Positions 26,857 to 50,056 of a stretch of 64,000 nucleotides of DNA are shown here, in pieces; positions within the stretch are counted from its first letter, which is position 1; each line of letters starts with the position of its first letter. The position numbers and the translations under genes were made by a program. The stretch comes from Acidobacteriota bacterium. Its GTDB lineage: Bacteria > Acidobacteriota > Terriglobia > Acidiferrales > UBA7541. The DNA is taken from NCBI GenBank assembly GCA_003225295.1, contig QHYZ01000051.1, positions 1 to 64,000 on the forward strand. The letters are read 5' to 3'. The notes under the pieces are model-generated. The model made no database searches and had not been told where the DNA came from. It worked only from the letters and a program-made list of their open reading frames with translations.

Positions 26857-28132
26857 ATCGTCCAGGATTCAGCGTGTTTTTGGGATCGAGCTGTTGCTTC
26901 ACCGCTTTCATTAATGCGAGTGCATCCCCGGCCATTCCCCAAGCGTCGAACGCCGGCATCTTGTCTGGACGATGGAGCACAACAAGAGAACCATGCTGGC
27001 CTTGCAATTCGCCGCGCAGCGTCCGAAGCGCCCCGCGCAGCGAGCCGGCGCTGCCTTCCAGACGAAGCCCTCCGAGGCCAGTTGCGTACATCAGCGCTTT
27101 CCATTGGAGCTGATGGGCGTTTGCCGAGTGTGCCACCAGTTCCATCGTGTGCGCCAGGTTTGCCGGCAAGATGCTGATTTTCGCCATGGCCGTGCCTGCC
27201 GGATCCGAAAAAGCCCAAAGGTCTTCGCGGGCCGTCCAGGTTGAGGTGGAAGTTTCCGAAATGTTTGCCGGTGCGGATAGATTTCGCAGTTGCGCCTCTT
27301 GGGCAGTGAGCCCGGCGTCTGTTCCTTCAAACAGAATGTCCGAGACGGGTGGAGCGTCATCCGAAAAATGGGATTGCAGGAAGGCGTGAGCGAGTTTCGA
27401 ATCCTGAACCGCCAGGACAAGTTTCTGCGTCTCTTCCGCATTCACCGTGGAAACGCTGAAGGAGCGCGAATTGAGAGGAAGCGGATGGAGGCGAAACACC
27501 GCGCGGGTGATGACGCCGAGAGTCCCCAAAGCCCCGGTGACAAGCTTGGGAAGATCGTAACCGGCGACGTTTTTCACCACCTTGCCGCCGCTGCTCGCGA
27601 GCGTGCCGTCGGGGAGAGCAATGGTGACGCCAATGATCAGGTCGCGCAGAGCGCCAAAACGCAAACGGAGCGCACCGCTGTCGTTGGTGGAGAGCACGCC
27701 ACCCACGGTGGCTTTTTCCGGCCACAGCGGATCAAGCGCCAACCGCTGGCCATGTTGGGAGAGCGTTTCCTGCAATCTTTGAATGGTGCAGCCGGCCTGG
27801 ACACTTACGGTAAGATCGGCCCAGGCGTGCTCGATGATTTCGGTCATTCGCGCCGTTGACAAAATCAAATCCGCACTCGCGGGGGAATTTCCCCACCCCA
27901 GCTTGGTCCCGCCACCTCGCGGAATCACCGCCAGACCCGCATAATTCGAAAGCAGCAAAACGTTGACAAGCTCTCTTTCCGTTCCTGGTTCAATCACCAG
28001 CTTTGGTTGCGCTCCGACGACGGCATCCGCGGCGGTCGCCGCCCGCACATACTCATTCCCGACCAGGGCAATGAATTTGTGGCGCAGCGCCGGACGCAAC
28101 CCGCTCGCCTCGGATTTGGTTGCGGCGTCCAT
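26840..28132 (-). CDS. glcE: Glycolate oxidase FAD-binding subunit
   Basis: A 430-residue member of the FAD_binding_4 family. The flavin-binding segment is visible (VIPRGGGTKLGWGN), as are VGGVLSTNDSGALRLRFGAL and a degenerate C-terminal domain, typical of GlcE compared with GlcD. It forms the membrane-associated glycolate oxidase with GlcD and GlcF, turning glycolate into glyoxylate. It starts nine bases after the glcD stop and overlaps glcF. Confidence 0.93.
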   Translation of the reverse strand: MDAATKSEASGLRPALRHKFIALVGNEYVRAATAADAVVGAQPKLVIEPGTERELVNVLLLSNYAGLAVIPRGGGTKLGWGNSPASADLILSTARMTEIIEHAWADLTVSVQAGCTIQRLQETLSQHGQRLALDPLWPEKATVGGVLSTNDSGALRLRFGALRDLIIGVTIALPDGTLASSGGKVVKNVAGYDLPKLVTGALGTLGVITRAVFRLHPLPLNSRSFSVSTVNAEETQKLVLAVQDSKLAHAFLQSHFSDDAPPVSDILFEGTDAGLTAQEAQLRNLSAPANISETSTSTWTAREDLWAFSDPAGTAMAKISILPANLAHTMELVAHSANAHQLQWKALMYATGLGGLRLEGSAGSLRGALRTLRGELQGQHGSLVVLHRPDKMPAFDAWGMAGDALALMKAVKQQLDPKNTLNPGRFVGGI

Positions 28133-36444: not shown

Positions 36445-36551
36445 GTGTACGGCCGAACATGAATCGGATTGCACGGGCATTGTAGCAGCACCGGACTGGC
36501 GGCAATAACCACACTGACAAAGGCTTGACATTGAGGGTAAAATCACAAGAC

Positions 36552-36932
36552 ATGGCTAACGCACCGGAAGTGCTAAAAACTCCTGGAATGGTGCCCGACG
36601 AGCTGAAGCAGGAGCCGCGCTCGAAGGGCATTGTCACAGCGCGGAAGAAGAAGCCCAAGGAACTTGCCGTTATCACCGAGTGCTGCACGGGCTGTGCCGG
36701 ATCGCCCGCTTGCGTGGAGTACTGCCCGGTGGAAGACTGCATGTTCTGGGTGCCGGACGAGGACAATCCGCCGTTCGGGCGCATCCAGATTGATCCCATT
36801 CAGTGCATCGGCTGCAAGAAGTGCCTCAGCAAAGGCCCGGACGGCTGCTTCCTGGATGGCTGCCCATGGGACGCCATCGTCATGGTGGATATCGCGGAAG
36901 TAGAAAAAGAAGTTGGCCCGATGGCCTACTGA
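36552..36932 (+). CDS. Ferredoxin-like 4Fe-4S protein
   Basis: A 126-residue soluble protein from the ATG at 36552. Two clusters are likely. The first has C-C-T-G-C-A-G-S-P-A-C-V-E-Y-C-P, with a longer gap than usual between the second and third Cys. The second is CIGCKKCLSKGPDGC followed by FLDGCPWDAI, with a longer gap than the standard CxxCxxCxxxCP. The N-terminus is Lys-rich. Presumably a cytoplasmic electron carrier. It stands alone between the leftward glycosyltransferase gene and the convergent respiratory operon, so its partner is not evident. Confidence 0.85.
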   Translation: MANAPEVLKTPGMVPDELKQEPRSKGIVTARKKKPKELAVITECCTGCAGSPACVEYCPVEDCMFWVPDEDNPPFGRIQIDPIQCIGCKKCLSKGPDGCFLDGCPWDAIVMVDIAEVEKEVGPMAY

Positions 36933-37002: not shown

Positions 37003-37914
37003 TCAAGGTTGTTGGGCGGCCGCGCGGTCACGAATGGATTTTTCGGTGAGCAAGGCTTGCTGGCGGATGCGGTCAGAGATTTCGGGGAGCTCGCGCTGGT
37101 AAGGACCGATGGCGGGCAGGTCACCGGTTTGGCCGATGAGATAGAGCGCGCGAAGGGCTTCCCAGACTTGCCCGTCGCCAGGGTCCACTGTGGCGATTTC
37201 AGTTCCGGCGGCGATGTGCGTTCCGGGCGCGACGGAGATCGTGCGAATGCGGCCGCTGATGGGGGAGCGGAGTTCCGTTGTTTGCCGGCCATCCTGCAGC
37301 TTTGCCACCAGACCGCCTTGGTGGATGGGCGTCCCCGCTTGGTCCACATCGGTCACGCGCCCGGAACGAGATGCGATAATTCTCGCGGATTGCAACAGGG
37401 CGACGATCTGCGCCCGCCCGGACGAATCGCCAAAGCGCACCAGAGAAAGCGCAGCATTGCCGCGCACCATGGGAGAGGAGTCCTCGAGCATCTTCAACAA
37501 CGCCTCGTGAAAACCCGTCCCCGAAGTGTCCTGGCCCATGACCCAGGCGTCGGTGTTGCGCACTTCCTCCACGGGATGCCAAGCCAGCCGGATCAATTCC
37601 GGGTACAAAGGCTTCACGCCGGGGTCGTGCCGCACCATGTGCTCGCCCAGCTGCACGAGCGCATGCTGGATGTGCCGCGGATGCTTTTCATCGTTCAGGA
37701 ATTCGCCGATCTGCTTATCGGAGAGCTGGCGTCCAAACCAGGTGTTCCACCAGAACAGGAACGGCATGAGGACGATCAACCAGGCAGTGAGGAAAAACAG
37801 CGCGCGATTCCGCGGGGACATTTTGTGATGCGGCGACGAAGCGGCCTTTCCCGATGAATCTTCCGGGGCAAACGCTGGCAGATCACCATTTTCTGGAGAT
37901 GGAGGGCTACCCAT
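37003..37914 (-). CDS. Membrane-anchored HEAT-repeat protein with a lipoyl-like domain
   Basis: A 303-residue protein with one membrane segment (about residues 38-56, ALFFLTAWLIVLMPFLFWW). HEAT-like helical repeats follow (about 85-180, VRNTDAWVMGQDTSG and SSPMVRGNAALSLVRFGDSS). Then comes a barrel-sandwich region resembling biotinyl/lipoyl domains of adaptor proteins (about 210-245, SGRIRTISVAPGTHIAAGTE) without the modified Lys. It is the last gene of the leftward operon with the Rieske/cytochrome b genes. I infer a periplasm-facing assembly factor or accessory subunit. Confidence 0.75.
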   Translation of the reverse strand: MGSPPSPENGDLPAFAPEDSSGKAASSPHHKMSPRNRALFFLTAWLIVLMPFLFWWNTWFGRQLSDKQIGEFLNDEKHPRHIQHALVQLGEHMVRHDPGVKPLYPELIRLAWHPVEEVRNTDAWVMGQDTSGTGFHEALLKMLEDSSPMVRGNAALSLVRFGDSSGRAQIVALLQSARIIASRSGRVTDVDQAGTPIHQGGLVAKLQDGRQTTELRSPISGRIRTISVAPGTHIAAGTEIATVDPGDGQVWEALRALYLIGQTGDLPAIGPYQRELPEISDRIRQQALLTEKSIRDRAAAQQP

Positions 37915-37930: not shown

Positions 37931-38170
37931 CTAGCTCTCTTCGGAGGTCGGCGGCCGCTTGGCGGGCTCTGCTTTGCTCTTCCCCAGGAGCCCCTGGTCG
38001 CGAAGCTCCCAGAAAACATTCAGGAAGAAGATCCCGGAAATGCTCAGCATGATCAGGCTTTCGAACAGGCCATCCACCGTGGTGAGCGTCCCGGTGACGA
38101 TGATCCAACCAATCCCCGCAAGAGGGATGAGGCCAAGCAGGATGGAAATCAAGAGCATCACGGGAAGCAA
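37931..38170 (-). CDS. Small two-span membrane protein in the respiratory operon
   Basis: A 79-residue protein with two membrane helices (LPVMLLISILLGLIPLAGIG and SLIMLSISGIFFLNVFWEL) and a charged cytoplasmic tail (GKSKAEPAKRPPTSEES). No family is recognised. It lies 16 bases upstream of the HEAT-repeat gene in the same direction and follows the cupredoxin-like lipoprotein gene, so it could be a small subunit or assembly helper of the quinol-oxidising complex. That role is inferred from position only. Confidence 0.7.
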   Translation of the reverse strand: MLPVMLLISILLGLIPLAGIGWIIVTGTLTTVDGLFESLIMLSISGIFFLNVFWELRDQGLLGKSKAEPAKRPPTSEES

Positions 38171-38316: not shown

Positions 38317-39096
38317 TCAGGGCTTGAACGTCGCATCCACCGTCTTGGTGTCTTTCGCGGCAAGCGTGACTTTCATCTCCTGTTCGCCAAGCTTTTCATG
38401 CACGAAGGCGATAGTGTAATCGCCAGGCGGCAGGCCCTTGATTTCAAACTTGCCGTCCGGTCCAGTGACCGCATAAAACGGATTCTTGGTTACGTTGACG
38501 AACATGCGCATCCACGGGTGCTGGTTGCACTTCACGGGCAGCATAATTTCTTCGCGGGCGAAGGTCTTCTCGATAGGTGCGGCCTGAGGAGGCTGTGACT
38601 CGTTCCACTCGCGGTTATCCTTCGGCGTGGGATGAATATTGTGGGTCGTGGGATCGCTGTTGACGATCTTGACGGTCTGACCGGCCACTACGCCCAGCAC
38701 ATGGGGATGGTATTTGCAGCCGCTCTGATCGAGGGTGATGGCTTCCTTGGGAACCTCGAAAGTGCGGCTGCCCAAGCCTTCTTTCACATAGACAAAGACG
38801 TTGGCTAAGTGGCCTCCGCTGGCCATTACGTTTTCGGCCGTGTTCGTACCTTTGCAGGCGGGGTCCTGGCTCATATCAATCACCGCGGCCTTTGGCGCGG
38901 GACCATCGAACTTTACAACGCCAATGATCGTGGCTGCCGTGGCGGGATCGATGGGCGTGGCCGGCGCCGCTGGCGCGGTAGCGGCGGGAGCCGCGGGCTG
39001 TTCCTCCGCAGATTCCTTCTTGCCGCATCCCGCAAGCAGCGCGAGGCCCAGCATGGCGGGCGGGCAATAAATCGTGAGCAATTTTTTCGCTTTCAT
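38317..39096 (-). CDS. Cupredoxin-like lipoprotein
   Basis: Product of 259 residues from the ATG at 39096, with GAGGTG about nine bases upstream; a GTG four codons earlier is possible. A lipobox (LALLAGC) predicts an outer- or inner-membrane lipoprotein. After an Ala/Pro linker the body has features of a type 1 copper site: a His in THNIHPTP and a Cys-His-Met cluster in PVKCNQHPWMRM. It then closes with a carboxypeptidase-like beta-sandwich (GPDGKFEIKGLPPGDYTIAF). In the operon of a multihaem cytochrome it could shuttle electrons. Copper binding is inferred. Confidence 0.8.
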   Translation of the reverse strand: MKAKKLLTIYCPPAMLGLALLAGCGKKESAEEQPAAPAATAPAAPATPIDPATAATIIGVVKFDGPAPKAAVIDMSQDPACKGTNTAENVMASGGHLANVFVYVKEGLGSRTFEVPKEAITLDQSGCKYHPHVLGVVAGQTVKIVNSDPTTHNIHPTPKDNREWNESQPPQAAPIEKTFAREEIMLPVKCNQHPWMRMFVNVTKNPFYAVTGPDGKFEIKGLPPGDYTIAFVHEKLGEQEMKVTLAAKDTKTVDATFKP

Positions 39097-39147
39097 ATTG
39101 TCGCGCACCTCATCTAGAAATTTGCAGACTCACACAAATGGAACTTC

Positions 39148-42100
39148 TTATTCTTGGCCGCCGCGACCGGCGTTACCAGACGCTTGCACCCCGGAAGGAG
39201 CGCTGCCGCTGGAGGCGCGCGCGCGGCCCATCGCAGCGCCAACCCGCCGCTGCTCATCCGCGGTGAGCTGGAGGATGTAATCCACCAGCAGCTTGGTCTG
39301 ATCCCTATCATAGTCTCGGAACGAAGGTGGAGTAGGACCAGAAAAGACCCAGTGATCGTTTTCCCGCTTGAAAAGGCCGGAAGGCATGGAGGTGCCCGGG
39401 CTGATGGCCTGCGGGTCGATGATCCAGCGCTCCATCCAATCGGGTTTCAGGCGGCCGCGTGCTTGCAAGAAGTTGGGGGCGGTGGCGGTGCGGTCGTGAG
39501 CCGGATCGCCGGTGGCGTGACACTTCAAGCAGGGCGCTGCCGTGCTGCTAAACAGGCTCCGCGCCATCTCTGTTTCCTTCGTGGTCAGCACCGGGACCTC
39601 TTCCGGTATGTAAGGGAAGGGCTGGCGCGCCAGTGCTTGGAAGAACCGCACCAGCTTGCCTAGCTCATTTTCGGAAAAAGAGAACGTTGGCATGCGCACT
39701 TGCAGGTACGAGCGCACGCCGTTGCGATTGGTGTCCGTGCCGTTCAACGCCGGGTTTTTCAGGAAACGCAACAACCACTCGGGATCAACACGTGCGCCTT
39801 CGGTGAGGAGCTTCGGTGGCAACGTCTCCTGTCCGTCGGGGCCCTGATAGCGTGCCATCGACATGAGCGAAGTGCGTTGACCGGGAATGAGCTGGTGGCA
39901 GCCCATGCAGTTGTATTTCTTGACCACCCACCAGCCTTCCTGAATGTCGCGCCGATAATCCATGGGCCGGTATTGATAGCTGGCGGGAAGTGGGTTCTCC
40001 TGGCTGCCTAACAGAAAAGTCGTGAGCGCGCGAATCTGTTCCTTGGTCAGGTGCAAATTCGGCATTCTCAATTTTTCCGTTTCCGGTTTGTCCTTGCCCT
40101 GGTCCCAGATGTTCGGCTCGGCCAGTTTGTGTTCGAAGAAGCCCTTCTGGTCATACCAGGGTTGTTTGGCTGGACCTTCGGGCAACCGCGCTAGATCGTC
40201 TGGATCGGTGATCGGTTCGCGGCCGCCGCGCTGCGCCGTTTCTGTAAGCAACGCGAAATCCAACCGCTCAATTGGTTTGCTGCCTTCAATGGTCAGCTCC
40301 GTACCAATGCGGCCTTCGTCTTCGAGGCCGGAAATTTCATGGCATCCGGCGCAGCCGAAGTGGCGAACCCACTTCTTGCCTTCCGGCTTCAAATTTGGAT
40401 CGTCCATGAATGATGCGTCGGCATACGCGGAGGCCTCTTGCTTTTTCAACGTCACCAGATAGCTGGCGACGTCTTCCGCATCTTGAGGAGACAGCCGCAA
40501 ACTGGGCATCACGGTCATGTTCTGCACTTGCAGCTCGTGTCCATCGTTCGGGCACCTGCTGTGTTCCAGGTCAAAAATATAGGGCAGACCCTTCTTTTTG
40601 TAATCTTCGGGACCGATGTCCTTCTTTTCGTAGGGGCAGTAGGGACGCGTGCGCTCACGCGCGTTGTGAACCCAACGCACCAGATAGTCGTAGCTGTCCT
40701 TCTCACCCACGCGGGTAAGATTCGCGGCGAAGGTTCCGCCCTGCAATTGGTCGCCCTCGCCGATGGAGTGACATGCCAGGCAGCCACGCGTTTCAAACAG
40801 CTCTTGGCCGTGAGCCGCGTTTCCCGGTTTGTGCTTGGGCAAGGGATCCGTCAGCGCCGACTGCCACACGTACGCGGAGATGGCTTTGATCTGTTCATCG
40901 TTGAGCCGGAAATTCGGCATCTTGGTTGAGCTGCGGAAGTCGCTGGGCTTCTTTAGCCAAACCGGAATCCAATTCTTGTTTAATTTGAGGCGCGCGTCCT
41001 TAAGATTGGGCCCAACCTTTTTCAGGTCTTGCAGCAAGCTCTTGGTCGAACGGTCCAGCTGCACGATACGCAGGTCCAGCTTGCTGTTTGTGACTTTCAG
41101 CGCGACGGCGCGGTCGTTCAGCCGGTTGGCCTCCTCGTTGCTCTCGGCTTTGTCGGCTTCCTTCATCAAATCATCCGCTTGCTTAACATTGTCCTTCTTC
41201 TCTTGGTCGAGCTGCTTGATCTGCTGTGCGACGGAGAGCAGGTCTTCGGGTTCCTTGTCATAGCCTTCGTAACGGTGACAGCCCATGCAGCCGCGCTGGC
41301 GGAAAAGATCTTTGCCATCGCTGAGCGTCCAGCCCACTTCGTTGCTTACCAGCACCATGTCCGCAGCATGGCAGGTCTGGCAACCGGCTTCCATATTTCC
41401 CTTGCGGAACAGAGGCCAGAGCCAGTGCTCGTAGGTGCCATGCGCTTTTTCGACGCCCGTGGTTGCGCGTCCGTTGCCCTGGTGGCAAGGCGAACAGCCG
41501 TATTTTTCCGGGTCGTGAATCTTCAAGAGTTCGCGTTCCGGATGACTGGTGAAGGCGCGCGCGTACTCGTCCGGTTTCTTGTCCTTCGCTGACATGGAGG
41601 TGGCCGTCAACTTGACCGGCTCGCGAACCCCCATGTGGCAGGATTCGCAGCGGTCCACGATATTGGCTTCAGGGACGTTGATCTGCAGAATTTTTGGCGT
41701 CCAGGCTTCGGTCTTGTTCTGCAGGCCGACGAGTTGTGGGGGCGTGAGGTTCACCATGTGATCGGTGACGTAGGCATCCAGCAATTCTTTCTTTTCGTTG
41801 ACCGGCTTGATCAATTCGCCGAGCTCCGCGCTCAGTTGGGTGCGCTCGTTTTTCAAGTCGTTATAAGTCTTTTCGAGCTCGTCGTAATCCTTAAAAGTCT
41901 GTTTCTTACCGTCCGGCATTTCGGCGGCGGTGCTTTCTTTCTTGTATTCGTCCAGATTCCTTTGTTTGCGTTGTTTTGCGGAAAGACTTGTCTCGGTCTC
42001 GATGTCATACGTGGAGGCGCTCACATAGGCGCGCCGGTCGGTGAAAACGCTTTGCACGGCCAAAATCTGCGCGCTTAGGTCGCGCAGCTTTTCGTTGATT

Positions 42101-42402
42101 TCCTTGATGCGCGGGGCAGCGTTCTGACTGGCATTCTCGTAATCTTGTTTCAGCTTCTGGTAGTCGGGACTGCTCTCGACGTCTTTTTGCGACTCGCTCG
42201 ACTGCGATCGGGCAGTCTTTAGGAATGTCGAGTAGCGGTCTTTCCACTCATGCTGGAAGGCCTTCCACGGACGTTGCCCGAAGTCCTCGTCCCACAGTGC
42301 CCAGAACAGCGTGGCCATCAAGATGACCATGGAGATGACGTAATGCGGCGCGAGCGACTTGCTGACTACCGGGTCGTTTTCGGGAATGGGCTTTTCGGGC
42401 AC
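39148..42402 (-). CDS. Membrane-anchored eight-haem c-type cytochrome, 1084 residues
   Basis: One membrane segment (about residues 20-37) anchors a very large extracytoplasmic protein. A long, highly charged, probably coiled-coil stretch spans about 50-215. Eight CxxCH haem sites follow, with first Cys at residues 252, 303, 341, 372, 541, 684, 832 and 958. A second coiled coil lies at about 385-460. Two further Cys in YCPYE (589) and RCPNDGHELQ (617) are not haem sites. The C-terminus is Ala/Gly-rich. Located directly after split cytochrome b, it takes the place of the small cytochrome c1 or f and probably carries electrons onward to the oxidase encoded divergently. It may be a fusion of several cytochrome modules. 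Confidence 0.9.
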   Translation of the reverse strand: MPEKPIPENDPVVSKSLAPHYVISMVILMATLFWALWDEDFGQRPWKAFQHEWKDRYSTFLKTARSQSSESQKDVESSPDYQKLKQDYENASQNAAPRIKEINEKLRDLSAQILAVQSVFTDRRAYVSASTYDIETETSLSAKQRKQRNLDEYKKESTAAEMPDGKKQTFKDYDELEKTYNDLKNERTQLSAELGELIKPVNEKKELLDAYVTDHMVNLTPPQLVGLQNKTEAWTPKILQINVPEANIVDRCESCHMGVREPVKLTATSMSAKDKKPDEYARAFTSHPERELLKIHDPEKYGCSPCHQGNGRATTGVEKAHGTYEHWLWPLFRKGNMEAGCQTCHAADMVLVSNEVGWTLSDGKDLFRQRGCMGCHRYEGYDKEPEDLLSVAQQIKQLDQEKKDNVKQADDLMKEADKAESNEEANRLNDRAVALKVTNSKLDLRIVQLDRSTKSLLQDLKKVGPNLKDARLKLNKNWIPVWLKKPSDFRSSTKMPNFRLNDEQIKAISAYVWQSALTDPLPKHKPGNAAHGQELFETRGCLACHSIGEGDQLQGGTFAANLTRVGEKDSYDYLVRWVHNARERTRPYCPYEKKDIGPEDYKKKGLPYIFDLEHSRCPNDGHELQVQNMTVMPSLRLSPQDAEDVASYLVTLKKQEASAYADASFMDDPNLKPEGKKWVRHFGCAGCHEISGLEDEGRIGTELTIEGSKPIERLDFALLTETAQRGGREPITDPDDLARLPEGPAKQPWYDQKGFFEHKLAEPNIWDQGKDKPETEKLRMPNLHLTKEQIRALTTFLLGSQENPLPASYQYRPMDYRRDIQEGWWVVKKYNCMGCHQLIPGQRTSLMSMARYQGPDGQETLPPKLLTEGARVDPEWLLRFLKNPALNGTDTNRNGVRSYLQVRMPTFSFSENELGKLVRFFQALARQPFPYIPEEVPVLTTKETEMARSLFSSTAAPCLKCHATGDPAHDRTATAPNFLQARGRLKPDWMERWIIDPQAISPGTSMPSGLFKRENDHWVFSGPTPPSFRDYDRDQTKLLVDYILQLTADEQRRVGAAMGRARASSGSAPSGVQASGNAGRGGQE

Positions 42403-42411
42403 CAGTTCCTC

Positions 42412-43341
42412 CTAAACGTTGAACCAAGGCGTAATCCACACGTACTTAATGTGGAACAGCAACCGCAACAGCATTTTGATCGGCAATGCGAGCATGGTGA
42501 GCAGAAAGGTCATCATGATCGAGTACTGCAGCAAGCTCATGCGCTTGTAATCTTTGGCGTTGTGCCGCCGGAAAAATGCGTGCACAAGCATGCCGCCAAT
42601 GGCGAAAAAGCCTCCAACTACTGCTGCCCCGAAGATGCCTTTGCCCCAATTCGAGGTGATACCGAAGAGATCCGGCAAGTCGCGATTCACTTCATAAATG
42701 AGCCGGTTGTGGTCCCAAGTCTGCCCCGGCCAGAACCACTGCCATCCGGGTCCACGAATAAACGTGCCGATGAAAATCATCGAGACCCACAGGATGATGA
42801 AGCCAAAAAGAAAAGTTCCGATGGCAAACTTGCGTTGCTTCCAGGTGTAGTAGCCGGCGCCCAACGGGTTGGTATCGATATAGGGAATCACCATCAGACC
42901 AACGATGATCAGCGTGGGCATGACCACGCCTGCGATCCAGGGATCGAAGTAAACCAGCATTTCCTGGAGTCCGAGGAAGTACCACGGTGCCTTCGCGGGG
43001 TTCATGGTCAGGTTGGGGTTCGCCGGTTCTTCCAGCGGGGCATTCAAAGTGATGGACCAAACCATCAGGATGATGGTGACGATGATGGCGGCGAGGAATT
43101 CCACGCGCAGCAGAAACGGCCAGACATGCACTTCTTTCGCCCACGCCGGCTTGAAGGGCCACGCCTTGCGGTGATGCGTTTTCGCCAGCGCCGCATTGCC
43201 TTCGAGCTCGGCAATGATCAGGTCATTGGCGTGCGCTTGTCTCCACGCGAGGTACATATAGAAAGCCAGCAGCGGAATCATGGCGATGATTGGCACGTTG
43301 TCCGCGGCGGAGAGAATTTCCCATAGTTGCTTCCAATCCAT
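42412..43341 (-). CDS. Cytochrome b C-terminal-domain subunit (subunit IV type, extended)
   Basis: A 309-residue membrane protein equivalent to the C-terminal part of cytochrome b or PetD. The Qo-site loop is recognisable as NPAKAPWYFLGLQEMLVYFD, with APWY in place of the canonical PEWY/PDWY. An extra N-terminal helix (PIIAMIPLLAFYMYLAW) and extra C-terminal helices make it longer than PetD. It starts two bases after the stop of the N-terminal cytochrome b gene and would form the quinol site with it. Confidence 0.92.
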   Translation of the reverse strand: MDWKQLWEILSAADNVPIIAMIPLLAFYMYLAWRQAHANDLIIAELEGNAALAKTHHRKAWPFKPAWAKEVHVWPFLLRVEFLAAIIVTIILMVWSITLNAPLEEPANPNLTMNPAKAPWYFLGLQEMLVYFDPWIAGVVMPTLIIVGLMVIPYIDTNPLGAGYYTWKQRKFAIGTFLFGFIILWVSMIFIGTFIRGPGWQWFWPGQTWDHNRLIYEVNRDLPDLFGITSNWGKGIFGAAVVGGFFAIGGMLVHAFFRRHNAKDYKRMSLLQYSIMMTFLLTMLALPIKMLLRLLFHIKYVWITPWFNV

Positions 43342-43343
43342 GG

Positions 43344-44270
43344 CTATTTTTTCGCCTCCTTTATCTCGGAGTCGAGCACCACGGCAGCCGGGCCGGAGAT
43401 GCCGCCATCCTTACGCACCCGCCAGAAGTGCAGCACCATGAAGATGGAAGCGATGATGGGAATGCCGATGCAGTGCCAAATGTAGGAGCGCAGGAGCGCG
43501 TTGGCGTCCACGATCGAGCCGCCCAGCAGGCCGAAGCGAACGTCGTTGTACGGCGTCATGCCTAACTGCGCGCCGAAGGGACCTTCGTGTCCGAGGAGAG
43601 GCGTGGCGCGCGCCATGTTTGTCCCCACGGTCACGGCCCAGAAGCCGAGTTGATCGTCGGGAAGCAGATAACCGGTGAAGGAGAGTAGCAGCGTCAGCAC
43701 CAGCAGGATCACGCCCACGTTCCAATTGAACTCGCGCGGCTTCTTATACGACCCGGTGAGAAACACACGGAACATGTGCAGCTCGACGGCGATCACCATC
43801 AAGTGCGCAGCCCAGCGATGCATGTTGCGCAGCAATTTGCCGAACGGCACATCGTGTTCCAGGTACAGCACATCCCTAAATGCCTGCACTTTGCTGGGAT
43901 GGTAGTAAAACATCAGCAGTACGCCGGTAAGGGTAAGCACGATGAACAAATAAAACGTGATACCACCCATCCCCCATGTGTAGCTGTAGCGCACCGCGTC
44001 ACGATTGATCTTGGCCGGATGCAGATGCAGGAAAACGTTGGAGAGCACGCCCAAGGCACGGTTGCGCGGCGTGTCGTCGTGCTTGTGCCGGAAGATTGAA
44101 GTGAAAACCTGAGTCTTGCTGGGCTTCTTCAGCAGTTCGACCTGTTCTCTTGCTTTTGCAGGCAGGTCCGTCCTGAGGGACTCGAGGTCCTCCTTGACGC
44201 CCGCTTTGAGGCGCTCGACCAAGCCAACCGATTTGTCATTTTTTCCGTTCGTGGTTTTCTCTTCGGGCAT
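43344..44270 (-). CDS. Cytochrome b N-terminal-domain subunit (b6 type)
   Basis: A 308-residue protein with a charged, about 60-residue cytoplasmic leader and four membrane helices. The two haem-ligand His pairs are visible: MHRWAAHLMVIAVELHMF (His 14 apart) and WHCIGIPIIASIFMVLHFW, where 14 residues separate the His pair. That spacing is that of b6f-type rather than bc1-type cytochrome b. With the C-terminal subunit and the Rieske protein it forms the quinol-oxidising core. Two bases separate it from the next gene. Confidence 0.94.
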   Translation of the reverse strand: MPEEKTTNGKNDKSVGLVERLKAGVKEDLESLRTDLPAKAREQVELLKKPSKTQVFTSIFRHKHDDTPRNRALGVLSNVFLHLHPAKINRDAVRYSYTWGMGGITFYLFIVLTLTGVLLMFYYHPSKVQAFRDVLYLEHDVPFGKLLRNMHRWAAHLMVIAVELHMFRVFLTGSYKKPREFNWNVGVILLVLTLLLSFTGYLLPDDQLGFWAVTVGTNMARATPLLGHEGPFGAQLGMTPYNDVRFGLLGGSIVDANALLRSYIWHCIGIPIIASIFMVLHFWRVRKDGGISGPAAVVLDSEIKEAKK

Positions 44271-44351: not shown

Positions 44352-44993
44352 TCACACTTGCAAAAATGATCCTGGATCGCTGAAATGGCTCGGTTGTCCC
44401 TTGGGCCACTGGTAGAGCCGGGAGGTATCCACAATAATCTGTCCGTCTGGCGCCAGTTCCACGTGCGCGCGATCCATTGGACGCGGTGCCGGTCCTTCAA
44501 AGTTGACACCTTCGCTGTCGTATCCGCTCCCGTGGCAAGGGCACTTAAACTTGTTTTCGCTGGCCTTCCAATCGGGTGTGCAGCCCAAGTGAGTGCAGCG
44601 GGCGTAGATGACAAACACGCGGTCCGGCGTGCGGTCCACCCATATGCGGTACTTCTGCTGCCATTTGGTATCGACGCCGAGGGCGTAGTCCGAAGCGTAA
44701 CCGATCTTGAACACGGTGGGGGGTTCGAAGAGCGTACGTGGCAGGAAAAAACGAAGAAAGGCGATGAACCAAGCGCCCAAAAATCCGGTGACGGCAGTCC
44801 ACACCAGCCGCCGACGCCGCTGGTTGATTTCACTTGGCTCGGGACCCACGGTGGCCAAACCGCCCGCCGCTGCTGCTTTGGACGTACCCACGGCAGGCGT
44901 ACCAACATACCTGGTTGCATCTCCGCCACCGGCAGCGGATGATTTCGCTGCGTCTGGCTTTGGTTTGGCCGAATCAGTTTCCGGGCCCGCCAT
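44352..44993 (-). CDS. Rieske [2Fe-2S] protein
   Basis: A 213-residue protein and the first gene of the leftward respiratory operon. An Ala/Lys-rich N-terminus of about 60 residues precedes one membrane anchor (LVWTAVTGFLGAWFIAFLRFFL). The soluble domain has both cluster-binding boxes, CTHLGC and CPCHGSGYD, with the ligand Cys and His residues intact. It takes one electron from quinol and passes it to the multihaem cytochrome. Confidence 0.95.
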   Translation of the reverse strand: MAGPETDSAKPKPDAAKSSAAGGGDATRYVGTPAVGTSKAAAAGGLATVGPEPSEINQRRRRLVWTAVTGFLGAWFIAFLRFFLPRTLFEPPTVFKIGYASDYALGVDTKWQQKYRIWVDRTPDRVFVIYARCTHLGCTPDWKASENKFKCPCHGSGYDSEGVNFEGPAPRPMDRAHVELAPDGQIIVDTSRLYQWPKGQPSHFSDPGSFLQV

Positions 44994-45574
44994 GCGATAC
45001 CTCCTGGGTTGCTGTCCTCGAAAATAATCGGCGGCCCCTGAAAGCGCCGCCCGTTCCCCCTTCGGTTATGAGCCCGGTCACCGCAGTCTGGTCGCGGTCA
45101 AAAATAGCCTGGACCGGAGCTCCACATCGTTTCAGAAATGATTTCGATTTGTCCGCGGTGAGGGAAGACGGCAGTCCCCAGGACTCAAAATGTTTTGCGG
45201 ATGGAGTGGACAAACTGCTGCGAGAGCGCGCCCTCACTGCGAGCGTGCGGGGCCCGTCGGATTGGGAAAGTGTGATACGAAAACATCGCGAGGTCCTCAA
45301 CATTTTCGCTGGACCCCCCAGAAACGAAACGGATATTACTCAAAACAAAAAATTTCGTCAATGCGTCTTTGCTGAAGTTGTCCGGCAAGGATTTGCAGCT
45401 CGTCGCGAGAAGAAGCTTCGCCAGCAAAAAAGAGCTGATACAAGAACCCGCTTGCGCTCAGAATAAGCTGTGATATATTCGCCCCGGTTTGCGTTTCCCC
45501 ACTTCTCTGATCCGGGAATTCGCAGCGGGCCTCAGTGGGGAAGGGCGAGAATCCAACTCGGGGGGTCGTGCGGC
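44994..45574. other. Divergent control region between the quinol-oxidising and oxidase operons
   Basis: About 580 bases between the Rieske start and the coxB start. Frames cross it on both strands but none has a domain, signal sequence or ribosome site, so I call no gene. It should carry the promoters of both operons; I could not fix -35/-10 pairs or an operator by eye. Confidence 0.5.
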
Positions 45575-46384
45575 ATGGGCCTCGTTCTTCTGATCATTAT
45601 CTGGCTGATTACCTTCGCCAGCACGTATTTCTTCATCGCCAAGACATGGTGGTTACCCACCGGGGCCTCTGCCGCGGCCGCCGGAATCGATCATCACTTC
45701 ACGACGACTTTCATCCTCATGGGCATTGTTTTCGTCGCTGCGCAGGTTTCCTTGGGCGCCCTTGTCTGGATTTACCGTGACCGCGGTTCTTCGTCTTCTA
45801 AGGTGACGTATTCCCACGGCAACACGAAATTGGAAATCGTCTGGACCTTGCTCACGACCATCCTTTTCGTGGGGTTAAACCTGATGAGCAGTTCCATTTG
45901 GGCTTCGGAGCGTTTCCGTCCCGCGGAAGTGGATGCCGTGCGTGTGGAAGTGACGGGGATGCAGTTCGCCTGGTATTTCCGCTATCCCGGGCCCGACGGC
46001 AAGTTTGGCGCGACAAATCCAGAACTTGAAGACGCCTCGGCCGGTGGCGAAGCAGCTTTGGGTCTCGATACCAAAGACGGCGCATCCAAAGACGATGTCG
46101 TGACGGGAACGATGGTAGTGCCGGTGAACCGCGAAATCGAAGTGATTTTGCGTGCCCACGACGTCATCCACAGCTTCTTTATTCCGACCATGCGCTTTAA
46201 GCAGGACGCTGTGCCTGGCCTCGCGATCCACATGCATTTCACGCCCATACAAACCGGAGATTATGAAATTCTCTGTGCCGAGCTTTGCGGGCTCGGTCAC
46301 TACAAGATGCACGGCATGTTGAAGGTCGTCAGTCAGGAGGAGTTTGACAAATGGCTGGCGGCACGGGAGGCCGAGAAGCAATAA
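45575..46384 (+). CDS. coxB: Cytochrome c oxidase subunit II
   Basis: A 269-residue subunit from the ATG at 45575; the frame is open further upstream, but that part is not family-like. Two membrane helices (LVLLIIIWLITFASTYFFI and LMGIVFVAAQVSLGALVW) are followed by the cupredoxin domain with the CuA ligands: His in HDVIHSFF, and CAELCGLGHYKM with both Cys, His and Met. No fused cytochrome c domain is present. It accepts electrons on the periplasmic side. One base separates its stop from the coxA start. Confidence 0.95.
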   Translation: MGLVLLIIIWLITFASTYFFIAKTWWLPTGASAAAAGIDHHFTTTFILMGIVFVAAQVSLGALVWIYRDRGSSSSKVTYSHGNTKLEIVWTLLTTILFVGLNLMSSSIWASERFRPAEVDAVRVEVTGMQFAWYFRYPGPDGKFGATNPELEDASAGGEAALGLDTKDGASKDDVVTGTMVVPVNREIEVILRAHDVIHSFFIPTMRFKQDAVPGLAIHMHFTPIQTGDYEILCAELCGLGHYKMHGMLKVVSQEEFDKWLAAREAEKQ

Positions 46385-46385
46385 C

Positions 46386-48131
46386 ATGGCTACTCACGAA
46401 TTCGCGGCCCAGGAATCTCACGCGCACGCGGCCCCCCAGGGCTTCGTCCGCAAATGGGTCTTTAGTCTCGACCACAAAGTTATCGGCCTCCAGTATTACT
46501 TCCTTGCGCTGGCGGCGGTGTTTGTTGGCATGTTCCTCTCGCTGCTCATGCGCATCCACTTGATCTGGCCCACATTGCCTTTGCCGCTCCTGGGCGACAT
46601 CAAGCCGGAAACGTATCTCACCTTGGTAACCATGCACGGCACCATCATGGTGTTCTTTGTGCTCACGACCGCGCCACAGGGTGGCTTCGGGAATTACTTC
46701 TTGCCCATTCAGATCGGCGCGCCGGACATGGCTTTTCCGGTGCTGAACATGCTTTCGTTCTGGACAACCTTGCTGGGCTTTATCGTAATGATCGCGGCTT
46801 TCTTCGTGGCCGGCGGGGCGCCACTGCACGGGTGGACCGGCTACGCGCCGTTGAGCGCCATGCAATCAACCGGGCCGGGCGAAGGACTCGGCGCGGACTT
46901 GTGGATCATCAGTATTGCTATTTTCTGCATCGGTGCACTGATGGGTGCGCTGAACTTCATCACCACGACACTTGATATGCGAGCTAAGGGCATGACCATG
47001 ATGCGCCTGCCACTGACCGTTTGGGCATGGTTCGTCACCGCTATCCTGGGGCTGCTCGCGTTCGGCGTGCTCCTCTCGGCCGGCATTCTCCTGCTGATGG
47101 ATCGCAACCTGGGCACTAGCTTTTTCGTGCCGCTGGTGACCATCAACGGCCAGCTAACCGGGCATAAGGGTGGCTCGCCGCTTTTGTGGCAGCACCTGTT
47201 CTGGTTCTTCGGCCATCCGGAGGTTTACATCGCGATCTTGCCGGCCATGGGGATGTGCTCGCAGTTGCTCTCGGTGTTCTCGCGCAAACCGATCTTCGGT
47301 TACAAAGCCATGGTATACGCTATCCTGGGCATTGGTTTCCTGGGCTTCATGGTCTGGGGACATCACATGTTCATGAGCGGTATGAGCCCTTATACCGCCT
47401 TCGCGTTTTCCATCATGACCATGGGCATCGGAGTCCCTTCGGCCATAAAGACATTCAACTGGCTCGGTACGCTCATGCGCGGGCGGATCCGTTTTACTTC
47501 GCCCATGCTATTCGCCATCGGATTCGTCTCGCTTTTCGTTTCCGGCGGGATCAGTGGCCCCTTCCTGGCGCAACCCGTGCTCGACATTCAGTTGCACGAC
47601 ACCTATTTCGTGCCGGCTCACTTTCACCTTATCATGGGAGTGGCCTCCATCTTCGGCATCTTTGCGGCAACCTATTATTGGTTTCCCAAGATGTTCGGAC
47701 GCATGATGAACGAATCCATGGCGCGCTGGCACTTCTGGTTCAGTTTCATTGGGACGTACGCGATCTTCATGCCCATGCACTATCTCGGTATGGCGGGGAT
47801 GCCGCGCCGCTATTCGCAGCTTACGGAGGTCACCTATCTCCACGGACTGATTCCGCTGCAGAAGTTCATCACCTATGCGGCGTTCGTCACCATCGCGGGT
47901 CAATTGATCTTTCTGGTGAATCTCTTTTGGAGCATGTTCAAGGGGAAGCAGGCCAGCGACAATCCCTGGGAAGCGACCACCCTCGAGTGGACCACAGCGA
48001 CGCCGCCTCCTCACGACAATTTCGGCGGGCACACGCCAGTGGTTCACAACGGTCCTTACGAGTACAACGTGCCCGGGGCGCCCCGCGATTACGTGATGCA
48101 GAGCGATCCGGAAATCGGGCCGGCACACTGA
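46386..48131 (+). CDS. coxA: Cytochrome c oxidase subunit I
   Basis: A 581-residue haem-copper oxidase core subunit with twelve membrane helices. Key residues are present: the low-spin haem His in TMHGTIMVFF, the CuB site with the His-Tyr pair in WFFGHPEVYIAILP, VWGHHMF with two CuB His, and YFVPAHFHLIMG for the haem ligands. The ATG at 46386 follows the coxB stop closely. It reduces O2 to water and pumps protons. The His-Tyr motif and loop residues point to an A-type oxidase. Confidence 0.97.
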   Translation: MATHEFAAQESHAHAAPQGFVRKWVFSLDHKVIGLQYYFLALAAVFVGMFLSLLMRIHLIWPTLPLPLLGDIKPETYLTLVTMHGTIMVFFVLTTAPQGGFGNYFLPIQIGAPDMAFPVLNMLSFWTTLLGFIVMIAAFFVAGGAPLHGWTGYAPLSAMQSTGPGEGLGADLWIISIAIFCIGALMGALNFITTTLDMRAKGMTMMRLPLTVWAWFVTAILGLLAFGVLLSAGILLLMDRNLGTSFFVPLVTINGQLTGHKGGSPLLWQHLFWFFGHPEVYIAILPAMGMCSQLLSVFSRKPIFGYKAMVYAILGIGFLGFMVWGHHMFMSGMSPYTAFAFSIMTMGIGVPSAIKTFNWLGTLMRGRIRFTSPMLFAIGFVSLFVSGGISGPFLAQPVLDIQLHDTYFVPAHFHLIMGVASIFGIFAATYYWFPKMFGRMMNESMARWHFWFSFIGTYAIFMPMHYLGMAGMPRRYSQLTEVTYLHGLIPLQKFITYAAFVTIAGQLIFLVNLFWSMFKGKQASDNPWEATTLEWTTATPPPHDNFGGHTPVVHNGPYEYNVPGAPRDYVMQSDPEIGPAH

Positions 48132-48138
48132 TCACCAT

Positions 48139-48879
48139 ATGGCAAGTTTCTCCACGACCGCGATGGTAGAAGATCCTAGAATCGCATTGGGCGACGGTGG
48201 CATCCTGCCTCCCACCCGGGGCGGCGGTGGTGATGATTCCGGTCCGGGATTGCCGGATTACGCAACGCGCCTGCGCCGGGCGCGTCTTGGGCTGCTGGTC
48301 GCGCTGACGCCCGTGCTGATGCTGTTTGTCTCCTTCACAAGCGCCTACATTGTGCGTCAGGGTCTTCCCACGCTCGATCCGCGCACGAATACGCTGGTAC
48401 GCGACTGGATCCCGGTAACACTTCCCAAGCTGCTGCTGATCAATACAGGCGTGCTGATCTTGAGCAGCGTGTTCATCGAGCTGGCGCGTCGCCAGATTAA
48501 GGGTCAGGCAGCTCTTCGGCCGAACACAGCCCATCCAAGAGTCTCCGCCGGTGACCCAATGAGGATTCCCTGGCTGTCAATGACTCTGGTCCTTGGCCTC
48601 ACTTTCCTTCTCGGTCAGTGGACGGCCTGGCGGCAACTGGCCGCCAATGGCTTTTATGTGGCGACCACCCCAAGCAGCTCTTTTGTCTATCTGCTGACCG
48701 GCACACACGCTATTCACTTGATGGGTGGTGTTCTCGCCCTGTTCGTCGCAGGCATCGCTTCGCTTCTCGGTCGCTCCGCGGCTACACGGAGCATTGTGGT
48801 GGATTTGACCGCGTGGTACTGGCATTTCATGGCCGCGCTGTGGATTTATATTTTGTGTTTGCTAGAGTTTGCCAGCTAA
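48139..48879 (+). CDS. Cytochrome c oxidase subunit III-like protein (five-helix type)
   Basis: A 246-residue membrane protein seven bases after coxA. A Gly-rich leader is followed by about five helices (LLVALTPVLMLFVSFTSAYI, LLLINTGVLILSSVFIELAR). It ends in YWHFMAALWIYILCLLEF, a conserved subunit III element with the WHF motif. The next gene encodes a second subunit III homologue, so two different subunit III proteins belong to one oxidase operon. Confidence 0.88.
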   Translation: MASFSTTAMVEDPRIALGDGGILPPTRGGGGDDSGPGLPDYATRLRRARLGLLVALTPVLMLFVSFTSAYIVRQGLPTLDPRTNTLVRDWIPVTLPKLLLINTGVLILSSVFIELARRQIKGQAALRPNTAHPRVSAGDPMRIPWLSMTLVLGLTFLLGQWTAWRQLAANGFYVATTPSSSFVYLLTGTHAIHLMGGVLALFVAGIASLLGRSAATRSIVVDLTAWYWHFMAALWIYILCLLEFAS

Positions 48880-48909
48880 CCGTACGTTTCTGAGCAGGAG
48901 GCCGGACGC

Positions 48910-49704
48910 ATGGCTGATTCCGCAGTGCACGATATCCAGTCGGTCTATGAACCGTCGCTGTTTGGCACTTACTCCAAGAAAATCGGGATGTGGCTATTCT
49001 TGCTCTCCGATTCGCTGACGTTTGGCGCATTGCTCTATGCCTACAGCTATGGGCGCATTTCGACTGAAGGCTGGCCCACGCCTTTCCATTCCGAGAGCAT
49101 CGTCAACGCCACCATCATGACGGCGTTTCTCCTTACAAGTTCCTTGACGATGGTGCTGGCGGTGAGGGCTTCCGTCCATGGCGATGCCAAAGGGCAGCGC
49201 CTGTGGCTGCTTGCCACTATGCTCTGCGGCACGGGATTCATCGTTCTTCACGGCCGCGAGTGGAGCAACTTGATCGCGGAAGGTTTGACTCTGCCAATGT
49301 TCCCTAAAGTGCCGGGTCGTGAAGCCGCCAGTGAGTTTGTTAACGTATCGAAAACCGTGCCGCAGTTTGGCGCGACTTTCTTCGGGCTGACGGGGATGCA
49401 CATGCTGCATGTGACTCTGGGCGTGATTTATCTCGGCGTGGTCGCGCTGCGGCGCAAATTCATCCCCATCCTGCTGGTCCTCTGGCTGGTCGCTTGGCTG
49501 GCAACGCCGGCTTATAGCCCCTTTCACTATGGCGCGCACGTGCTCTTAATCGGCGCGATTGTCTGCTCGATCATTCTGTGGTTGAAGCCCAAGCTATACG
49601 ACTCGTCCGACGTCGAAGTGGCCGGCTTGTACTGGCACTTCGTGGACCTCGTATGGATGTTCATCTTTCCTTTGGTCTATTTGATGTCCGCGAAAATTCT
49701 CTAG
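48910..49704 (+). CDS. coxC: Cytochrome c oxidase subunit III
   Basis: A 264-residue protein with about seven helices, GGAGG-like sequence before the ATG, and the family parts KKIGMWLFLLSDSLTFGALL, GMHMLHVTLGVIYLG and LYWHFVDLVWMFIFPLVYL. It stabilises subunit I and supports proton uptake. It lies between the other subunit III homologue and subunit IV. Confidence 0.93.
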   Translation: MADSAVHDIQSVYEPSLFGTYSKKIGMWLFLLSDSLTFGALLYAYSYGRISTEGWPTPFHSESIVNATIMTAFLLTSSLTMVLAVRASVHGDAKGQRLWLLATMLCGTGFIVLHGREWSNLIAEGLTLPMFPKVPGREAASEFVNVSKTVPQFGATFFGLTGMHMLHVTLGVIYLGVVALRRKFIPILLVLWLVAWLATPAYSPFHYGAHVLLIGAIVCSIILWLKPKLYDSSDVEVAGLYWHFVDLVWMFIFPLVYLMSAKIL

Positions 49705-49717
49705 CAGCCGGAGGGAT

Positions 49718-50056
49718 ATGGATACCATTCAAATAGCTATCGCGGAACGGGTCGCCGAGCAGCACCGCCATCACGGCAAAGCGCTGTTCTTTTGGGTTTG
49801 GGGCGCGCTGCTGTTGATGACCGCCATCGAAGTCTATCTGACCTATCAGAATATGCAGCCCGGGAAAATGTTGACCATTTTGCTGGGCTTGTCGCTTGTG
49901 AAGGCCGCGCTGATCATCGGCTACTTCATGCACCTAAAGTACGAGGTATCGAGCATGAAGTGGCTTACAATGTGTTCGGTGGTCGCTTGTCTGATCCTGA
50001 TGACCATCTTTTTCTTTCCGGATGCTTTTCGCATTCTCTATCTGGGAGTGAAATGA
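49718..50056 (+). CDS. coxD: Cytochrome c oxidase subunit IV (prokaryotic type)
   Basis: A 112-residue protein with three membrane helices (FFWVWGALLLMTAIEVYLTY, LTILLGLSLVKAALIIGYFM, LTMCSVVACLILMTIFFF) and the conserved YFMHLKYE motif of prokaryotic subunit IV. The ATG has GGAGG nine bases upstream. Its stop overlaps the next start as ATGA. Confidence 0.92.
   Translation: MDTIQIAIAERVAEQHRHHGKALFFWVWGALLLMTAIEVYLTYQNMQPGKMLTILLGLSLVKAALIIGYFMHLKYEVSSMKWLTMCSVVACLILMTIFFFPDAFRILYLGVK

Follow-up and report, generated by a model that had tools for sequence, protein, structure and literature searches.

The 64,000-nucleotide stretch of DNA analysed here (the window; Acidobacteriota contig QHYZ01000051.1) encodes a membrane-anchored cytochrome c with eight CxxCH haem sites, beside genes for a Rieske iron–sulfur protein, a cytochrome b6-like protein and a subunit IV-like protein. 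This octahaem protein probably serves as the cytochrome c component of a Rieske/cytochrome b complex of b6f type, which oxidises quinol and supplies a cytochrome oxidase with electrons, a reading given a probability of about 0.68. We infer its subunit status from gene order, from the match between its architecture and the cytochrome b clades, from conserved candidate haem ligands and from homology among its modules; the electron path and the roles of its two coiled regions are proposed below on a similarly conditional footing.

The octahaem gene starts with GTG, preceded at a distance of five bases by AGGAGG, and its CxxCH motifs lie at residues 252, 303, 341, 372, 541, 684, 832 and 958. Shuffling the residues 2000 times gave a mean of 0.005 such motifs and a maximum of one, against the eight in the real protein. 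No other open reading frame (ORF) of at least 60 residues in the window has more than one CxxCH, and a single motif occurs in one further ORF (26915–27241, plus strand). Near the N-terminus, a transmembrane helix is followed by an RxWK motif, whose Trp46 is kept in 100 of 101 aligned rows. The ORF, motif count and transmembrane helix bear out the initial annotation's description of an anchored, eight-CxxCH protein of 1084 residues.

The alignment comprises the window protein and 100 relatives from Acidobacteriota. Matching ORFs with at least seven CxxCH motifs numbered 149; nine cut-off ones were removed, and the 140 complete ORFs, many of them duplicates because a genome was present in two collections, were thinned at 88% identity. 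ORFs with fewer than seven motifs (e.g. in L025, L029, L030 and L163) lie outside these counts, and loci L001–L020, L121–L130 and L151–L157, short loci made by searches, were left out of the annotated set. Three architectures are present among the 101 rows: short (median 707 residues, no long coils), mid (963 residues, coil 1) and long (1088 residues, both coils). The window protein belongs to the long class. In one contig scan, the best 80 of 297 relatives were acidobacterial by title in all but three cases (Acidimicrobiia, HR08 and HR10); within those 80, the closest named one was 98% identical over residues 133–1084, and gp2 acidobacterial relatives were 80–91% identical, which places the host, a soil acidobacterium, near gp2/Acidoferrales. 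Locus L111 is on a contig titled Acidimicrobiia (Actinomycetota), yet its long-form operon is typical, cox genes included, and its cytochrome b groups with the acidobacterial ones; the contig is perhaps mislabelled or misbinned. In L026 (G017:C74; 1874–4969, minus strand), cytochrome b and an eight-CxxCH cytochrome share one frame (1032 residues called) beside a Rieske gene, a natural fusion.

The genes for the Rieske protein, cytochrome b, subunit IV, octahaem protein and a cupredoxin follow one another in this order, with gaps of 81, 2, 9 and 39 bases. The Rieske protein is thus accompanied by a b6-like cytochrome b and a separate subunit IV, as in the cytochrome b6f organisation, and the b6f-type setting first proposed holds. 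Among non-redundant relatives with 3.5 kilobases (kb) of upstream sequence, the Rieske, cytochrome b and subunit IV genes each lie upstream on the same strand in 46/47 long, 24/24 mid and 8/9 short loci. Furthermore, the three architectures coincide with three groups in a cytochrome b tree of 69 rows, each group set apart from the rest by a supported branch; two rows fall outside the groups on very long branches, and a long-branch-join warning involves L162. The upstream genes of relatives and the agreement between architecture and cytochrome b clade uphold the earlier proposal that the octahaem protein takes the place of cytochrome c1/f. Correspondingly, no cytochrome f model was among the Pfam or NCBIfam matches of the scanned proteins, the octahaem subunit standing in its place, and the NCBIfam model for QcrC, the dihaem subunit of the bcc complex, scored 46 bits against a cut-off of 200.

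Cytochrome b residues His151, His165, His266 and His281, which we take to be the b-haem ligands, are kept in 89–91 of 91 rows. Position 100, presumably the column of the b6 haem-cn cysteine (b6 Cys35), is Tyr in 8/8 short rows, Cys in 30/30 mid rows and Gly in 53/53 long rows, the window included; the long class therefore has no haem-cn cysteine at this position. Gly100 and coil 2 co-occur in all 53 long rows. By the tree, their appearance can be one event, a co-occurrence from which no functional link is drawn. The subunit IV motif at the quinol-oxidising (Qo) site is KAPWYF in 94 of 96 rows and RAPWYF in one, with none found in the remaining row; it is not PEWY, the Qo motif of mitochondrial cytochrome b, and this motif is reported to differ among lineages (PMC9162462). 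By crude hydropathy, subunit IV has six transmembrane helices in 49/56 long rows, eight in 22/32 mid rows and four or five in 8/8 short rows; the number in the Kuenenia subtype is five. A further cytochrome b residue, His82, is invariant in 91/91 rows. Its short-form equivalent is residue 44, near His43 of Kuenenia Kuste4571, a likeness by position alone and unaligned; Kuste4571 His43 is the modelled ligand of an extra haem b at the dimer interface (PMC12954380).

Each of the eight haem sites in the octahaem protein is kept in 100–101 of 101 rows, partly by choice, as a row needed at least seven CxxCH motifs to enter the alignment. The candidate sixth ligands were not selected for: His287 is kept in 100/101 rows, His296 and His321 in 101/101, Met495 in 99/101, Met632 and Met904 in 100/101 and Met780 in 101/101. 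Met1006 is present in all 91 mid and long rows, and its column holds Glu, Asp or Asn in 10/10 short rows. From these patterns, it appears that haems 1–3 are probably bis-His ligated and haems 4–8 His/Met ligated. As three conserved His and five Met residues are available, a candidate sixth ligand exists for every haem in the mid and long classes, and no haem seems obviously open to substrate.

The five Met-type class I cytochrome c domains are mutually homologous (hhalign E 2e-10 to 3e-31, 10/10 pairs). The trihaem part aligned with them at E 4e-4 to 4e-3 over merely 10–18 columns around CxxCH, which was not counted as homology, and a PDB sequence search with the octahaem family returned one weak match, a NorC-like protein. 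The initial annotation had ascribed the uneven haem spacing to fused mono- and dihaem modules. The spacing is indeed uneven and modular, but it comes from a single trihaem module, five domains of class I and the insertion of two hairpins. Scores of the trihaem part lie above the Pfam cut-offs for the MtrC/MtrF domain (34.0 bits), Paired_CXXCH (31.6 bits) and cytochrome c7 (28.2 bits), as might be expected if the octahaem protein were an independent conduit for extracellular electron transfer, with no more than the operon in common with the complex. The N-terminal transmembrane anchor, the clade congruence with cytochrome b and the cupredoxin and oxidase neighbours make such a conduit scarcely credible; no porin was seen among the eight neighbouring proteins given to Pfam, the extent of the porin search.

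An AlphaFold2 model built from the 101-row alignment has a mean predicted local distance difference test (pLDDT) score of 90.2 and a predicted template modelling (pTM) score of 0.82, with block pLDDT values of at least 91 for residues 51–215 and 381–460. An earlier model from 18 close relatives was poor (pLDDT 53.6, pTM 0.31) and was discarded. Both coils are predicted to be antiparallel helical hairpins that fold back, the second lying between the CxxCH of haem 372 and Met495. A home-made heptad test passed 202 residues of the protein, whereas 300 shuffles averaged 56 and never exceeded 183; 28 of the 202 (residues 559–586) fall outside both coils. The long helical regions that had been read as two long charged helices are thus supported by the heptad test and the model, but each is a helical hairpin rather than a single helix. 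Coil 2 superposes on the antiparallel arms of seryl-tRNA synthetases over 76–78 residues, with a root-mean-square deviation of 1.7–2.9 and Z of 9.0–10.4. The VIA-align search behind this comparison displayed 50 rows, mostly coiled coils, at Z 8.7–10.8, under the tool's telling level for helical folds; it hardly probes the haem domains and was used just for the hairpin shape of coil 2. A Foldseek search with the model gave no match at E <= 0.001 among 326; four of its first five rows were SoxX-type domains of SoxAX, and many other rows were coiled proteins.

The lengths of both coils are nearly constant in the long class. Trp46 and Cys252, which flank coil 1, are 205–221 residues apart in 59 long rows, 146–225 (median 211) in 32 mid rows and 27–42 in 10 short rows, and the distance from Cys372 to Met495, across coil 2, is 122–124 residues in the 59 long rows, 46–49 in mid rows and 16–61 in short rows. 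Conservation in the long rows is 0.57 and 0.64 in the coils, compared with 0.75–0.83 in the haem domains. Fixed length with looser sequence fits a brace or ruler. Given the hairpins in the model and so little variation in length, the coils more plausibly clamp the complex than reach out to the oxidase, since a hairpin would add no reach to what comes after it.

In the proposed mechanism, quinol would be oxidised at the Qo site; in this phylum, the quinol is menaquinol. One electron would pass from the Rieske cluster to the membrane-near trihaem module, and from there along the five His/Met class I haems. It would leave by way of an amicyanin-like cupredoxin tethered to the membrane, by direct transfer to the oxidase's CuA, or both. 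Bis-His haems near the membrane and His/Met haems farther out would form a path that is downhill for electrons. Coil 1, which follows the transmembrane anchor, would clamp the c-subunit to the complex, as modelled for Kuenenia Kustd1485, and coil 2, a near-exact-length insert in the first class I domain, may serve as a second brace or docking face. It is conceivable, if rather doubtful, that the arrangement goes further: the octahaem subunit and the tethered amicyanin-like protein would stand in for both cytochrome c1/f and diffusible cytochrome c, as parts of a hard-wired menaquinol:O2 supercomplex. Coil 2 would then be a dock of exact length, made either to the oxidase or across the dimer, and would have arisen in the very lineage that lost covalent haem cn from its cytochrome b.

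In 52/53 long loci, the next gene downstream of the octahaem gene encodes the cupredoxin, whose copper site (His156, Cys194, His197 and Met200) is invariant in 26 rows. Its profile matches amicyanins over the copper site (best E 2e-5); the profile's top PDB match, NOMO2 (E 8e-13), covers the C-terminal transthyretin-like domain, and Pfam sees that domain in 26/26 members of the family. In another oxidase cluster of the same genome, the gene immediately upstream of cox2 is a paralogue, and short loci carry a cupredoxin relative elsewhere in the cluster. From these associations, the cupredoxin is a candidate carrier to the oxidase. The window's own oxidase cluster, divergently oriented, begins 476 bases from the Rieske gene, and its cox2 is without CxxCH.

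The adjoining cox cluster in this genome and in relatives also bears on the suggestion, made in the initial annotation, that the coils span the distance to the oxidase, taking the haem wire over to it as spacers or arms, and on the related idea that they bind the oxidase. Among loci with 7 kb on both sides, cox1 was found by 10/26 long loci compared with 2/8 mid loci (0/3 short). Yet the model folds each coil back on itself into a hairpin, which would give little end-to-end reach; coil 1 is about equally long in the mid class; and no cox1 was found in 16 of the 26 long loci. The spanning role was not supported, and oxidase-reaching or oxidase-binding arms appear unlikely.

Nor does a role in NAD(P)H formation by the splitting of electron pairs, as proposed for Kuenenia, seem probable. 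The octahaem core is common to the short, NAD(P)-linked form, cytochrome b is split, and the invariant His82 lies, by position alone, near Kuenenia's modelled extra haem b ligand. The short form has an NAD(P)-oxidoreductase gene beside it in 8/9 loci with 3.5 kb of upstream sequence; against this, within the sequence searched, no gene like it was found in the 64-kb window (best tblastn E 0.19) or in any of the 26 long loci that extend 7 kb to either side. In mid loci, the search gave two weak matches (24 and 113 aligned residues), taken as other proteins. NAD(P)H production by the window's complex is accordingly judged very unlikely.

Several observations weigh against a quinol-oxidising complex that feeds the oxidase through the octahaem subunit. 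The model is one chain without haems, is weaker at residues 311–330 (the weakest inner blocks, pLDDT 71 and 57), and leaves subunit contacts outside its frame. Pfam copper models match few members of the cupredoxin family (Cupredoxin_1 3/26, Copper-bind 1/26), the cupredoxin gene is directly downstream in just 17/29 mid and 0/10 short loci, and cox1 was found in just those 10 of 26 long loci. The same genome has two further cytochrome b genes and a cluster resembling alternative complex III (ACIII). Finally, 12 of 25 genomes of the window's genus, six of these 12 being 94–99% complete, yielded no long form, which is therefore not indispensable.

The long form was detected in the other 13 of these 25 genomes, the window's own included (one in pieces and one cut by a contig end). 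At E <= 1e-30, its profile matched 53 of 247 Acidobacteriota genomes in an even sample: 15 over the full length, and 38 over the C-terminal domains in open frames of 734–1167 residues, in rows judged by eye. The additional complexes in the window's genome comprise a short octahaem complex and a third cytochrome b with its own Rieske protein, and there are four COX1 genes in total; the ACIII-like cluster has a caa3-type cox2. With several complexes in the genome, the window's complex would therefore be one of several routes. The short octahaem complex (L021; G000:C69) has an anammox-like build with a 676-residue octahaem protein, and its NAD(P)-oxidoreductase, of 631 residues, has Pyr_redox_2, Fer4_20 and Fer4 domains. 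At L190 (G000:C113), an NrfD-family gene, as in ACIII, neighbours an oxidase with a cytochrome c domain on its cox2.

Table 1. Coordinates of the octahaem gene, its predicted modules and neighbouring genes in the window.
Feature	Position	Strand	Basis or remark
Membrane-anchored HEAT and barrel-sandwich-hybrid protein	37003..37914	-	Pfam, NCBIfam, recurrence
Small ORF with two transmembrane helices, TTG start; possible small subunit	37931..38170	-	tblastn E <= 1e-3 in 65 loci (L001-L197, many overlapping)
Probable lipoprotein (LAGC by eye); amicyanin-like cupredoxin domain and C-terminal transthyretin-like domain	38317..39108	-	Profile matches
Octahaem membrane-anchored cytochrome c	39148..42402	-	1084 residues
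Class I domain, haem 958, Met1006	39235..39570	-	Alignment
Class I domain, haem 832, Met904	39628..39945	-	Alignment, profile comparison
Class I domain, haem 684, Met780	40003..40395	-	Alignment, profile comparison
Class I domain, haem 541, Met632	40438..40821	-	Pfam, alignment, profile comparison
Class I cytochrome c domain, haem 372, Met495, coil 2 inserted	40843..41322	-	Alignment, profile comparison
Coil 2 hairpin: helices 384-417 and 422-459, inside haem-372 domain	41026..41253	-	Model
Trihaem module: haems 252, 303, 341; conserved His 287, 296, 321	41323..41685	-	Alignment, model (less sure at residues 311-330)
Coil 1: helices 45-76 and 79-136, short strands within 158-170, return helix 173-215	41758..42270	-	Model
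N-terminal transmembrane anchor, residues 18-42, then RxWK motif, residues 44-47	42277..42351	-	Hydropathy, helix in AlphaFold2 model
Subunit IV-like protein, Qo-site motif KAPWYF	42412..43341	-	PF00032
Cytochrome b (b6-like), Gly100	43344..44270	-	PF00033
Rieske iron-sulfur protein	44352..44993	-	PF00355; cluster motif residues invariant 46/46
Divergent oxidase cluster cox2-cox1-cox3-cox3-cox4	45470..50056	+	cox2 by Pfam; others by homology and hydropathy by eye

Beyond the cupredoxin gene, the HEAT protein gene recurs near the complex in 18/26 long and 3/8 mid loci with 7 kb on both sides, and its product is a possible assembly factor. A ferredoxin-like gene (36525–36932, plus strand), convergent with the HEAT gene, is near the complex in 14 of the same 26 long loci. 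A scan for promoters and terminators at the locus was uninformative (4 promoter-like sites compared with 3.1 expected).

The best NCBIfam match of the window's cytochrome b is ExtP of the Geobacter ExtOPQ(S) system, at 263 bits and below the cut-off of 290, and the c-type protein of the window scores 28.7 bits against ExtS (cut-off 100); the Geobacter Ext cluster has other cytochromes and a putative porin (PMC5877670). The acidobacterial 'bc1-A1 caa3 superoperon' (PMC8407424) was considered as a match for the window locus. In six f11 genomes where no octahaem match reached E <= 1e-30, cytochrome b lies in frames of 495–538 residues in four and gave no match in two, so the superoperon may be a different complex. 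Cytochrome b6f shares with the window the split cytochrome b and Rieske organisation; the window differs in having no cytochrome f, a Qo motif of APWY rather than PEWY and, in common with the long class, no haem-cn cysteine. The short complex of the same genome has a homologous eight-haem core, Rieske protein, cytochrome b and subunit IV, but its octahaem protein lacks long coils and a Met at the eighth haem's ligand column, and it comes with an NAD(P)-oxidoreductase gene.

The initial annotation had allowed that the protein might prove to be a well-studied subunit; this is partly the case, as octahaem subunits of such complexes are in print (PMC3578206, PMC12954380). The kind is known: octahaem c-subunits occur beside split cytochrome b in Nitrospina, Kuenenia and Methylomirabilis (PMC3578206, PMC12954380), and the window, like these, encodes a multihaem c-subunit with Rieske, cytochrome b and subunit IV proteins. 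No recognised description of a coiled octahaem subunit in Acidobacteriota was found in the open-access literature, nor of its link to an oxidase, the lack of a haem-cn cysteine where coil 2 is present, or the three builds; some key reviews lie outside that search. With moderate confidence, the acidobacterial coiled, oxidase-linked form is apparently a new variant.

Published octahaem Rieske/cytochrome b complexes come from bacteria that carry out anammox, nitrite oxidation or nitrite-dependent methane oxidation, and the available text leaves their purpose open (PMC3578206, PMC12954380). In Nitrospina gracilis, as in Kuenenia and Methylomirabilis, an octahaem b6f-like operon encodes a Rieske protein, split cytochrome b and an 'atypical octaheme cytochrome c'; its description, in the portion available, mentions neither coiled coils nor an oxidase link, whereas the window has both coils and an adjoining oxidase cluster (PMC3578206). 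The Kuenenia complexes Kustd1480–1485 and Kuste4569–4574 are octahaem/hexahaem Rieske/cytochrome b complexes, and in Kustd1485 long helices are modelled to wrap the complex and its Rieske protein (PMC12954380). The likeness of Kustd1485 and of the Nitrospina c-subunit to the window protein is drawn from published description, not from sequence. In common with the window, the Kuenenia complexes have a b6-like cytochrome b, a subunit IV-like protein and a large, transmembrane-anchored multihaem cytochrome c instead of cytochrome f. In the published account, an NAD(P) oxidoreductase and a modelled haem cn belong to them as well; the window lacks both the oxidoreductase gene and a Cys at the site, but has a cupredoxin and an oxidase cluster. 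Many Acidobacteriota carry this same core build in three discrete forms, which track cytochrome b, the haem-cn site and partner genes for either an NAD(P) oxidoreductase or a cupredoxin and sometimes an oxidase. Together they constitute a natural experiment, in which the same wire occurs with and without each coil and with and without haem cn, and two forms occur in one genome, which makes it possible to test what haem cn and the additional haems do in such complexes.

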